Shown: piece after piece, positions 12,706 to 16,787 of the stretch
Position numbering within the stretch: position 1 is the first letter of the stretch
Layout of the letters: each line of letters opens with the position of its first letter
NCBI GenBank assembly: GCA_033391075.1
Contig: JAWPMV010000001.1
Location: forward strand, 558,001 to 622,000
DNA: 64,000 bases
Direction of reading: 5' to 3'
From: Bacteroidia bacterium
GTDB taxonomy: Bacteria; Bacteroidota; Bacteroidia; J057
Notes under the pieces: model-generated
Told to the model about the DNA's origin: nothing
The model's database searches: none
Seen by the model: only the letters and a program-made list of their open reading frames with translations
Position numbers and translations under genes: made by a program

Positions 12706-12736
12706 ACAAAAAAATCCTTCCCGAAACAGGAAGGAT
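12706..12736 (-). terminator. Rho-independent terminator of the tRNA-like RNA gene
   Basis: An 8-bp stem (ATCCTTCC and GGAAGGAT around a 7-base loop) which, on the minus strand, is followed at once by seven T residues. On the plus strand there is no T run, so it serves the minus-strand RNA gene that begins near 12922. Confidence 0.85.
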
Positions 12737-12750
12737 CTCTTTGGAAAATG

Positions 12751-12864
12751 CTGTAGGGGAAGGATTCGAACCTTCACGAGGAGGTTAGTCTACCGAAGCA
12801 GATTTATTCCAAGTCCCCACCCCCGAGACAAGAGGGCATGGCTGCCAATTTCATCACCCTACAG
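12751..12864 (-). tRNA. tRNA-like RNA with a 44-nt structured variable arm, anticodon-loop GUC (non-canonical)
   Basis: The minus strand folds as a full cloverleaf. The acceptor stem is TGTAGGG/CCCTACA, extendable to 8 bp by a C-G pair. The leucine-type D arm is ATG-AAATTGGCAGC-CAT. The anticodon arm is CCCTC-TTGTCTC-GGGGG and the T arm is GAAGG-TTCGAAT-CCTTC. By position, the anticodon would be GUC with an odd U at 37. The segment between anticodon and T arms is about 44 bases, far beyond the usual class II range of roughly 10-24. It folds into its own helix: GGGG/CCTC, TTGG/CTAA, then TCTGC-TTCG-GTAGA. No CCA is encoded. It has its own promoter and terminator. It may be a divergent Leu-type tRNA, a non-canonical tRNA or a tRNA-derived regulatory RNA. 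An ordinary Asp tRNA is excluded by the variable arm. Confidence 0.7.
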
Positions 12865-12927
12865 TATGTGATTTTTGCAAAATCTGGAAAAGAACTGTCT
12901 TTTATTCCTTTGCTTAATGGTACACTA

Positions 12928-12958
12928 CAAAGGTAAAGGACCTTAAATAAAAATCAAA
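12928..12958 (-). promoter_or_regulatory. Bacteroidota promoter of the tRNA-like RNA gene
   Basis: On the minus strand: TTTG, 19 bases, TACCTTTG, a perfect match to the -33/-7 consensus. Transcription would start near 12922 and run through the tRNA-like fold to the terminator at 12706-12736, giving a primary transcript of about 215 nt with a 55-60 nt leader. Confidence 0.8.
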
Positions 12959-13044: not shown

Positions 13045-13524
13045 ATGCCCGCGAATTTAGAAATTGATAAACTTGACTTGCAGATTTTATCCATTTTGAT
13101 GCAGAATGCGCAGACACCTTATACAGAAATTGCAAATCGCCTGGCTGTTTCTGGAGGAACCGTGCATGTCCGCATGAAAAAATTACTGAAAGAGGGCATC
13201 GTAAAAGGTTCACACCTGGAAATAGATGCCAGTAAACTGGGGTATGACATTTGTGCCTTTGTTGGGATGTTTCTGGAGAAAGGTTCCTTATATAATCGTA
13301 TCGTCAAACAGCTACAGGAAATCCCGGAAATAACGGAGATTCACTATACGACAGGTCGCTACGGTATTTTCCTGAAAATCGTAAGTCAGAATACCCGGGA
13401 ACTCCGCAGTATTCTCAATGATAAGGTGCAGCCCATAGAAGGGATCCAGCGTACCGAAACCTTTATCTCCCTGGAAGAAAGTATGAAGAGGCCAATCAAG
13501 ATCTTTAGAGAGGACGAAGCCTGA
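13045..13524 (+). CDS. Lrp/AsnC family transcriptional regulator
   Basis: A 159-residue regulator. Residues of about 5-60 form the winged helix-turn-helix (IDKLDLQILSILMQNAQ, then TEIANRLAVSGGTVHVRMKKLLKEGIV). Residues of about 65-150 form the RAM/AsnC ligand-binding domain, with the GRYGIFLKI strand. Such proteins assemble as dimers and octamers and sense amino acids or related metabolites. The ligand here cannot be told. It is a single gene between the tRNA-like RNA promoter and trmD. A TATTTTTG -7-like box lies at 12979-12986, but without a -33 partner. Confidence 0.92.
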   Translation: MPANLEIDKLDLQILSILMQNAQTPYTEIANRLAVSGGTVHVRMKKLLKEGIVKGSHLEIDASKLGYDICAFVGMFLEKGSLYNRIVKQLQEIPEITEIHYTTGRYGIFLKIVSQNTRELRSILNDKVQPIEGIQRTETFISLEESMKRPIKIFREDEA

Positions 13525-14860: not shown

Positions 14861-14934
14861 GCCGGTATAGCTCAGTTGGCCAGAGCAGCTGATTTGTAAT
14901 CAGCGGGTCGGCGGTTCGAATCCGTCTACCGGCT
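14861..14934 (+). tRNA. tRNA-Thr (TGT)
   Basis: A complete 74-base cloverleaf with acceptor pairing GCCGGTA/TACCGGC, T loop TTCGAAT and anticodon loop TTTGTAA, giving anticodon TGT. No CCA is encoded. It is the first gene of the tRNA-tuf cluster. Confidence 0.96.
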
Positions 14935-14989
14935 CAGATAAAATCGAAATTATCTGGCTATCAATGAGTTAGCGCTGGTTTTGATTTCT

Positions 14990-15071
14990 GGGGAGATACC
15001 GAAGCGGTCAAACGGGGCAGACTGTAAATCTGTTGGCTCAGCCTTCGTAGGTTCGAATCCTGCTCTCCCCA
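14990..15071 (+). tRNA. tRNA-Tyr (GTA)
   Basis: A class II tRNA of about 82 bases, with acceptor GGGGAGA/TCTCCCC, anticodon loop CTGTAAA (anticodon GTA), a variable arm of ordinary size and T loop TTCGAAT. Confidence 0.95.
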
Positions 15072-15149
15072 CCGGTTCTTTACATATTAAGATTTTTAGA
15101 GAGTGGTTCTTTTTCGGAAGAACTTACCTCTGAGAACTAATCAAATTAA

Positions 15150-15222
15150 GCGGGAGTAGCTCAGTTGGTAGAGCATTAGCCTTCCAAGCTAAGGGTCGCG
15201 GGTTCGAATCTCGTCTCCCGCT
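15150..15222 (+). tRNA. tRNA-Gly (TCC)
   Basis: A 73-base cloverleaf with acceptor GCGGGAG/CTCCCGC, anticodon loop CTTCCAA (anticodon TCC) and T loop TTCGAAT. Confidence 0.96.
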
Positions 15223-15293
15223 CAATGTAAGTTCGATTACTGGATGGAACTGTCAAAGAGCATAACGCTTATTTATCCAAAACGAACTTCTTT

Positions 15294-15366
<73 letters not shown>

Positions 15367-15413
15367 CACTCTATTATTTATTACGAGACAAATATTTTTA
15401 GAAACATTTAAAG

Positions 15414-16601
15414 ATGGCAAAGGAAACATTCCAACGTACCAAGCCGCACGTGAACATTGGCACAATCGGGCACGTGGATCACGGCAAAACCACGCTCACC
15501 GCTGCTATTACCACCGTGCTTGCAAAAGCCGGTAATGTTGAGGTGAAAAGCTTTGACGAGATTGACAACGCTCCTGAAGAAAAAGAGCGTGGTATTACTA
15601 TTAATACCTCTCACGTAGAGTATGAGACTGTAAATCGTCACTATGCGCACGTTGACTGTCCTGGTCACGCCGACTATGTGAAAAACATGGTAACTGGTGC
15701 TGCTCAGATGGACGGTGCGATATTGGTTGTTGCCGCGACGGATGGTCCTATGCCTCAAACTCGTGAGCACATCCTGCTTGCTCGTCAGGTTGGTGTACCT
15801 CAGCTGGTTGTATTCATGAACAAAGTTGACCTCGTTGACGACGAAGAGTTGTTGGAGCTGGTTGAACTTGAGATTCGTGATCTCTTGAGCGCTTACGATT
15901 TCGCAGGTGATGATATTCCTGTAATTCAGGGTTCTGCTTTGGGTGGTCTTGACGGACAGCCTGAGTGGGAAGCTAAAATCCTTGAGTTGATGGAAAATGT
16001 TGATAGCTTTATCCCAACTCCTAAAAGGGATACTGAAAAAGACTTCCTGATGCCTGTAGAGGACGTGTTCTCTATCACAGGTCGTGGTACTGTTGCAACG
16101 GGTCGTATCGAAACCGGTGTAATCAACAGTGGTGATCCTGTAGACATCATTGGTCTTGATGCAGAGAAGCTTTCTTCTACTGTTACTGGTGTGGAGATGT
16201 TCCGTAAGATCCTCGACAGAGGAGAAGCTGGTGATAACGTAGGATTGTTGCTTCGTGGTATTGAGAAAACTTCCATCAAGCGTGGAATGGTTATCATTAA
16301 GCCTGGTTCTGTAACTCCTCATAGCAAGTTCAAAGCTGAGGTTTACGTACTGAGCAAAGACGAAGGTGGTCGCCACACTCCATTCTTTACCAACTACCGT
16401 CCTCAGTTCTACTTCCGTACAACTGACGTAACTGGAGTAGTTTCTCTTGGTGATGGAGTTGATATGGTAATGCCTGGTGATAACACTACAGTAACTGTAG
16501 AGCTTATCTACCCAGTTGCAATGACTAAAGGTCTTCGTTTCGCGATTCGTGAAGGTGGTCGTACCATCGGTGCGGGTCAGGTTACTGAGATCCTCGAATA
16601 A
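15414..16601 (+). CDS. tuf: Elongation factor Tu
   Basis: A 395-residue translational GTPase that delivers aminoacyl-tRNA to the ribosome. The G1 box GHVDHGKT is at residues of about 18-25. The switch I segment [12 protein letters not shown], the [12 protein letters not shown] box (G3) and MNKVDLVDD (G4) follow. Domains 2 and 3 are complete, with the usual C-terminal [14 protein letters not shown]. It is embedded between tRNA genes, as in many Bacteroidota, and is the only EF-Tu gene in the window. A hairpin follows its stop codon. Confidence 0.99.
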
Positions 16602-16611
16602 GATAAATTCA

Positions 16612-16643
16612 TTTCCGGACTCCCTTTTGGGGAGTTCGGAAAA
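16612..16643 (+). terminator. Stem-loop after tuf
   Basis: A long stem (TTTCCGGACTCCC pairing with GGGGAGTTCGGAAA) around a TTTT loop, just after the tuf stop codon. It is followed by only a mild T content, so it may be a leaky terminator or an RNA-processing/stability stem ahead of tRNA-Trp and secE. Confidence 0.6.
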
Positions 16644-16701
16644 TACTTTATATAAATCACACATTGATTCGCAAATTCATTTGCGATATATGTGTTTAAA
16701 A

Positions 16702-16774
16702 ACGGGTGTAGCTCAATTGGTAGAGCGACGGTCTCCAAAACCGTAGGCTGAGGGTTCAAGTCCTTCCGCCCGTG
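16702..16774 (+). tRNA. tRNA-Trp (CCA)
   Basis: A 73-base cloverleaf with acceptor ACGGGTG/CGCCCGT, anticodon loop CTCCAAA (anticodon CCA) and T loop TTCAAGT. It lies 13 bases before secE, the usual tRNA-Trp/secE/nusG order. Confidence 0.96.
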
Positions 16775-16787
16775 CAAATAAACTGTT

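Follow-up and report, generated by a model that had tools for sequence, protein, structure and literature searches.

The window analysed here, 64,000 nucleotides of contig JAWPMV010000001.1 (positions 558,001 to 622,000, forward strand), comes from a Bacteroidia bacterium with a genome of 9.5 Mb in 5 contigs, and carries on its minus strand, at 12751..12863, a stand-alone gene of 113 nt for a tRNA-like RNA (positions 1-73 in tRNA numbering). Direct reading of the sequence bore out the original prediction of a complete small gene with its own promoter, leader, cloverleaf and terminator. The promoter (12928..12958) reads TTTG-N19-TACCTTTG, which we take to be of the Bacteroidota type, with TTTG at 12958-12955 and TACCTTTG at 12935-12928, and is followed by a leader of roughly 57 nt; the intrinsic terminator, a ATCCTTCC/GGAAGGAT hairpin with a T run, lies at 12708..12736 (minus strand), the terminator-like hairpin itself spanning 12736-12714. 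The acceptor stem is UGUAGGG/CCCUACA, its 5' strand TGTAGGG at 12863-12857 and its 3' strand CCCTACA followed by G73 at 12751 and then a C, so that it has U1:A72 and G2:C71 and CCA is not encoded. The anticodon arm CCCTC-TTGTCTC-GGGGG (12836-12820) presents the loop UUGUCUC at 12825..12831, i.e. U32 U33 G34 U35 C36 U37 C38, with GUC at 34-36 (12829-12827), and the loop of the T arm is TTCGAAT. Between these two arms lies a variable region of 44 nt (12776..12819), made up of a 4-bp stem GGGG/CCUC, a helix of 2-3 bp, an internal loop and a hairpin with a UUCG loop, a structure read from the sequence, the parsed copies and covariation. The GUC, the U37, the lack of an encoded CCA and the arm of about 44 nt with its UUCG hairpin had all been predicted and were borne out by the sequence; the label leucine-type was right for the D arm and wrong for the discriminator, which is G73 and not the A73 of tRNA-Leu. 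A divergent gene on the plus strand (13045..13524), separated by 182 bp from the RNA's 5' end, encodes an AsnC-like regulator of 159 aa with Pfam Lrp/AsnC domains, for which the best NCBIfam model was AsnC PRK11179 at 169.4 bits, below its cut-off of 227. The aspartate identity letters, U1:A72, the AsnC-like neighbour and the spread of the family, described below, are additions to what had been predicted.

Standard tools did not recognise the gene. ARAGORN called no gene at 12751-12863, and on the first twenty related loci (L001-L020) it called a single one, a tRNA-Pro reading in L003. No Rfam family, RF00005 (tRNA) included, matched the window copy at gathering scores, and at E values up to 5 the sole match was of 17 nt of the T arm, on the antisense strand, to an unrelated plastid family. 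The RNA nevertheless has the parts of a tRNA fold: a 7-bp acceptor, a D arm with GG in its loop, an anticodon arm, and a 5-bp T arm whose loop reads TTCRA. Its acceptor/T branch is 7/5, not the 8/5, 8/4 or 9/3 of tRNA-Sec and allo-tRNAs, and position -1 varies opposite a fixed G (C 81, U 64, A 21 in 166 copies), so an eighth acceptor pair is not kept. A tmRNA was rejected, as only T-arm fragments matched, far below gathering scores, while an anticodon stem is present and covaries; other Rfam families were likewise set aside, none having matched at gathering scores. Folding of the window copy alone was no better than that of shuffled sequences (z 0.03), and the evidence for a family is therefore comparative. 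A search of the open literature, with subscription journals mostly outside its scope, found no description of such an RNA.

The original prediction had left room for a decayed tRNA, to be recognised by absence of the arm and of covariation from all relatives. A BLAST search found a match in 17 of 60 related genomes, with tandem copies frequent, and all 7 helices covary, those of the arm included, so that this sign of decay is absent. In named genomes, a pattern of the D and anticodon arms recovered at least 119 stretches, the matches listed belonging to the Chitinophagaceae, Saprospiraceae, Cyclobacteriaceae, Flammeovirgaceae and unplaced metagenome-assembled genomes of Bacteroidota, with one labelled Flavobacteriaceae. 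From 42 sequences a covariance model, R1, was made; of the 395 class genomes searched with it, 68 carry the RNA at a score of at least about 73 bits (67 in the scan and one on rescoring), the best score of the window genome being 119.1 bits. We took weak matches of the class scan (about 50-60 bits, 80-86 nt) as tRNA-Leu by their length and by the scores of control tRNA-Leu genes, the ordinary tRNA-Leu genes of the window genome scoring 49 and 55 bits. In a sample of the phylum, 39 of 395 genomes matched R1 at E 1e-15, three of them in another class, where the RNA was again divergent from an AsnC-like gene in 3/3 loci fetched. The RNA-positive group took in genomes in which R1 scored at least about 73 bits, plus G243, which scored 64 bits in the scan and 103.9 bits when rescored as L217; genome G077 (65 bits, a short form) was placed in neither group. 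For the protein comparisons below, a first set of 40 RNA-positive and 40 RNA-negative genomes was picked before any protein search, and a second set comprised the other 28 RNA-positive and 52 further RNA-negative genomes, giving 68 RNA-positive genomes and 92 others overall.

In a first alignment of the family, two-sided changes occurred in 19 of 31 base pairs, and the number of two-sided cells was 171, against 61.6 ± 7.2 in shuffles; paired cells amounted to 94.9% versus 84.4% in shuffles, and were clearly fewer when the partners were slid against each other. The alignment of 90 class-scan matches, which is fitted to the model, gave two-sided changes in 24 of 31 pairs and 407 cells, against 119.8 ± 12.5. 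Among 164 parsed copies the variable region ranged from 38 to 124 nt, and all four closing pairs of its arm were formed in 159. The order within the arm was four closing pairs, a short helix, an internal loop (consensus NANAAA / CYAA) and a hairpin, which in many genomes carries an additional module with GGGUUGACCAC. The promoter pattern TTTG-N17-21-TAnnTTTG preceded 44 of the 164 copies, whereas 200 block shuffles gave an average of 0.8. Judged from this comparison of sequences, the tRNA-like RNA is a real RNA family of the Bacteroidota.

Several copies depart from the common form. Tandem copies (L041, L100, L117, L080 and others) often consist of one short-armed and one long-armed RNA, and the long arms have the GGGUUGACCAC module in common. 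The genome of the window holds a second copy (C1:937140-937258, equal to L181:4141-4259; 105 bits) without an AsnC neighbour, adjoined by a relic of 26.8 bits at L181:3819-3931, and in G176 a degenerate copy lies beside an asnC gene broken by stops. The short form of G077 (L216:4039-4114, minus strand) is a 76-nt relative lacking the long arm, with U1:A72, G73 and the loop CUAUCUC, and is called tRNA-Asp (atc) by ARAGORN; it is either a natural deletion of the arm or an ancestor-like form. Eleven viral contigs were among the pattern matches listed, some of them near-identical to one another, and in 8 of the 11 three or more ordinary tRNA genes lay near the RNA. Contigs L142, L144 and L147-L149 hold arrays of 6-14 ARAGORN tRNA genes, the RNA included. 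Phages treat the RNA as one tRNA worth carrying; two RNA queries against a collection of named phages gave no match.

The divergent arrangement with an AsnC-like gene recurs across the family. By tblastn, such a gene was found within 700 bp upstream at 69 of 127 pattern loci, the other 58 being 11 viral loci, 10 that were cut short, and 37 cellular loci without one. At class-scan loci the count was 44 of 69, with 2 of the remaining 25 cut short. The median distance between RNA and AsnC-like gene was 149 bp for the pattern loci and 167 bp for the class-scan loci; E. coli has asnC and asnA in divergent orientation, separated by 151 bp. AsnC proteins scoring 200 bits or higher, a line drawn after the scores were seen, were present in 39/40 RNA-positive and 6/40 RNA-negative genomes of the first set, the remaining RNA-positive genome being G176 with its broken asnC. 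A search beside asnC in the six asnC-bearing RNA-negative genomes did not find the RNA, nor did one beside asnC in four RNA-positive genomes with the RNA located elsewhere; the best score was 12 bits.

The letters of the RNA were counted in 84 distinct copies from the class scan, a set that the model had picked out independently of the anticodon pattern; 83 of them have a 7-nt anticodon loop. U1:A72 and G2:C71 were present in 84/84 and G73 in 83/84, and in the loop U35 and C36 were found in 83/83, C38 in 82/83 and G34 in 79/83. According to the accessible part of PMC9976931, the strong determinants for aspartylation are G73, G34, U35, C36 and C38, and the bacterial amidotransferase acting on Asp-tRNA has U1-A72 as its determinant and G1-C72 and U20a as antideterminants. 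The family carries the letters for recognition by aspartyl-tRNA synthetase (AspRS), with G34 lacking in 4/83, as well as those for GatCAB, the D loop of the window copy (GGCAG) having no 20a by the numbering used. In the host, tRNA-Asp has G1:C72 and tRNA-Asn has U1:A72; going by these letters, the RNA unites the synthetase signature of tRNA-Asp with the amidotransferase signature of tRNA-Asn. An indirect-pathway tRNA-Asn itself was rejected, as this needs GUU and U36 occurred in 0/83 loops, and so was a tRNA-Leu, whose A73 is replaced by G73 in 83/84.

The letters used for decoding are not kept in the same way. At position 37 the 83 loops had 67 U, 8 G, 8 C and 0 A (U or C in 75/83), and position 33 was U in 70 and another base in 13; in the 7 copies from the other class, position 33 was A. 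Among 40 distinct ordinary tRNAs of the window genome, U33 was found in 40/40 and a purine at 37 in 38/40, a combination that the RNA family as a whole does not show. U37 occurs in the two ordinary exceptions, one tRNA-Asp and one tRNA-Glu, which belong to the two dense tRNA arrays of this genome (C1:1139618-1140463 and 1175878-1176357), both of mobile or phage-like appearance. The window itself contains a further cluster at 14861-16775, with tRNA-Thr, Tyr, Gly and Thr genes, an EF-Tu gene and tRNA-Trp, 3' of trmD and a ribosomal protein gene, the non-tRNA genes having been named by eye.

The presence of the RNA was also tied to that of GatB. In the first set GatB scored over its cut-off in 40/40 RNA-positive and 20/40 RNA-negative genomes, and in the second set in 27/28 and 40/52, respectively. 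Asparaginyl-tRNA synthetase (AsnRS) was present in all 80 genomes of the first set, and glutaminyl-tRNA synthetase (GlnRS) in 26 RNA-positive and 21 RNA-negative genomes of the first set and in 15 and 15 of the second. The GatB-bearing RNA-negative genomes lacked GlnRS in 19/20 and 37/40 cases in the two sets, so that GatCAB is needed there for Gln-tRNA. When only the 77 GlnRS-bearing genomes are considered, GatB was found in 40/41 RNA-positive and 4/36 RNA-negative genomes, and the latter four are all members of a single family, whose GatB forms an in-frame fusion with AspRS. The RNA or the fusion accounts for GatB in 44/44 GlnRS-bearing genomes having GatB among the sampled Bacteroidota. Three families (f1, f42 and f47) have members with both RNA and GatB plus one GlnRS-bearing member with neither, so the tie between RNA and GatB does not stem from one event. 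The fusion was annotated in G031 (L221:9804-13124), with a full bacterial-type AspRS including its GAD domain and with gatA just upstream, and was seen in one frame by tblastn in G111 (L273:2293-5610), in G143 (L274 from 2400, cut by the contig end) and in G075 (L275:194-3526, minus strand). GlnRS was present in all four genomes and R1 RNA in none, AsnRS was present in G031, where it was examined, and a search beside the fusion gene of G031 did not find R1 RNA (best 9.4 bits). A family with the AspRS and GatB activities in one protein and without the RNA points the same way as a carrier function.

We consider it probable, on the sequence comparisons, that the gene encodes a dedicated, non-decoding aspartyl carrier tRNA for the formation of asparagine, since this is the simplest account of three independent lines, namely the identity letters, the tie to GatCAB and the tie to AsnC. 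Transcription would start at the RNA's own promoter, with the divergent AsnC-like protein as the probable regulator, and end at the terminator; the transcript would then be processed to a tRNA that receives its CCA afterwards. AspRS would charge it with Asp by way of G73, G34-U35-C36, C38 and G2:C71, all of which are present, and GatCAB, whose GatB co-occurs with the RNA, would amidate the attached Asp to give Asn, guided by the U1:A72 pair that the RNA carries instead of the G1:C72 of tRNA-Asp. The Asn may then be released or handed on, supplying AsnRS and other users. Many or most members have lost U33 or a purine at 37, and the arm far exceeds the length seen in an ordinary tRNA; this loss and this arm would serve to keep Asn out of proteins at Asp codons. 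On a stronger version, a metabolic tRNA wholly outside translation, with the conversion of Asp to Asn on a covalent platform as its only job, with AsnC-type control in the place of asnA and with the GatB-AspRS fusion substituting for it in one family, we stand evenly divided.

Several observations weigh against the carrier function. Asparagine synthetases do not separate the groups, AsnB-family matches being found in 36/40 RNA-positive and 36/40 RNA-negative genomes and AsnA in 2/40 and 4/40, and since AsnB is common in RNA-positive genomes the RNA would not be the sole route to Asn in most of them. Some of the AsnB-family matches may be paralogues of other pathways. Of the 40 RNA-positive genomes examined, only G002, G176, G311 and G340 have the RNA without AsnB and AsnA matches, and in G176 the RNA is degenerate while that of G340 has U34; the latter is one of the 4/83 copies with U34 or C34 in place of G34. 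Since U1:A72 is found in the host tRNA-Asn as well, an AspRS of relaxed specificity could work on that tRNA in place of the RNA, and the family does not keep G10, which makes a minor contribution to Asp identity in E. coli. Genome G007 (93% complete, 390 contigs) has the RNA and GlnRS and no GatB match, an AsnC protein with a comparable score occurs in six of 40 RNA-negative genomes, and asnC was beside asnA in 0/6 AsnA genomes examined. Finally, Fisher's exact p for the joint table (4e-16) overstates the association, as the genomes are kin.

Three readings had been offered in the original prediction, and a tRNA used outside translation fits best, because the letters for aspartylation and amidation are kept, those for decoding are not, and the RNA tracks GatCAB; a regulator and a non-canonical tRNA fit less well. 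A scaffold or regulator would bind AspRS and/or GatCAB as a tRNA mimic (a sensor, a decoy or a transamidosome scaffold) and carry no amino acid, or would report the Asn/Asp state to AsnC. The AsnC neighbour suits such a role, the long structured arm with its conserved internal loop exceeds what a substrate needs, and 36/40 RNA-positive genomes have AsnB-family proteins anyway; however, G73 and the 2:71 and 1:72 pairs are near-invariant, which would suit a 3' end that undergoes charging and handling, and we regard this reading as unlikely. It would be more surprising still if the RNA were an unusual tRNA-Asp, decoding GAC/GAU under certain conditions such as phage infection or stress, with U33 and position 37 tolerated. 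This would leave the GatB tie unexplained, and an ordinary tRNA-Asp is present in the same genome and also in phage contigs L144 and L150, while position 33 is non-U in 13/83 and A37 is never found, although GUC stands in 79/83 loops, the tRNA-Asp and tRNA-Glu of the host array also have U37, and 8/11 viral contigs hold the RNA beside three or more ordinary tRNA genes.

According to PMC7609411, as far as its accessible text goes, seryl-tRNA synthetase (SerRS) takes a long variable arm and G73 as recognition elements, and the RNA could on that basis be a seryl carrier whose amino acid is used outside translation; a tie to GatCAB does not follow from this, and we think it very improbable. Decay has local witnesses, in the 26.8-bit relic beside the second copy of the window genome and in the degenerate G176 copy beside its broken asnC, but two-sided changes in every helix, the arm included, rule it out as an account of the family; against an intron-bearing tRNA gene, the insert is placed within a variable-arm stem that covaries and not in the anticodon loop, and we give these two readings almost no credence. 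An aspartyl carrier tRNA remains the reading that we favour.

If it is correct, an oddity would be explained. Bacteria with both AsnRS and GlnRS need no GatCAB for tRNA charging, yet many keep it: the survey in PMC4206432, as available in part, counts 67-68 genera with AsnRS, GlnRS and GatCAB, 41 of them with AsnB only, and considers GatCAB possibly vestigial where an Asn synthetase exists. A carrier RNA would account for GatCAB being kept in many bacteria though protein synthesis seems not to need it, and would mean that a tRNA can be set apart for making an amino acid, retaining what lets a synthetase and an amidotransferase recognise it and giving up decoding. For the window itself, an RNA gene is added where standard annotation (ARAGORN, Rfam) had missed it.

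Among known RNAs, canonical tRNA-Asp has G73, G34-U35-C36, C38 and G2:C71 in common with the RNA, which differs by U1:A72 in place of G1:C72, a class II-like long arm, a Leu-like D arm, U, G or C at 37 and a U33 that is not fixed. The class II tRNA-Leu has the D arm and the general fold in common with it, and the host's own tRNA-Leu genes reach 49 and 55 bits with R1, whereas G73, GUC and the arm, 38-124 nt long and bearing a conserved internal loop, set the RNA apart. Cell-wall synthesis in Staphylococcus uses a non-decoding tRNA-Gly, which is similar in being a tRNA set aside from translation and different in amino acid, enzyme and structure. The asnC-asnA pair of E. coli likewise has an AsnC-type gene divergent from an asparagine gene at about 150 bp, the difference being that the asparagine gene here is an RNA. 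The allo-tRNAs (8/4 and 9/3), in the part of PMC7609411 available to us, also combine an unusual cloverleaf with a long arm and have GUC among their commoner anticodons, whereas the RNA has a 7/5 acceptor/T branch, other anticodons are rare in it, and the allo-tRNA phyla differ as far as seen. Related in chemistry is the tRNA-dependent synthesis of Asn in Deinococcus, Thermus and Bdellovibrio, where, in the accessible text of PMC4206432, AspRS and GatCAB make Asn on a tRNA beside AsnRS and GlnRS and U1-A72 marks the substrate; that system uses the ordinary, decoding tRNA-Asn and a non-discriminating AspRS, whereas the Bacteroidota described here would use a separate RNA with an Asp anticodon and an altered loop.
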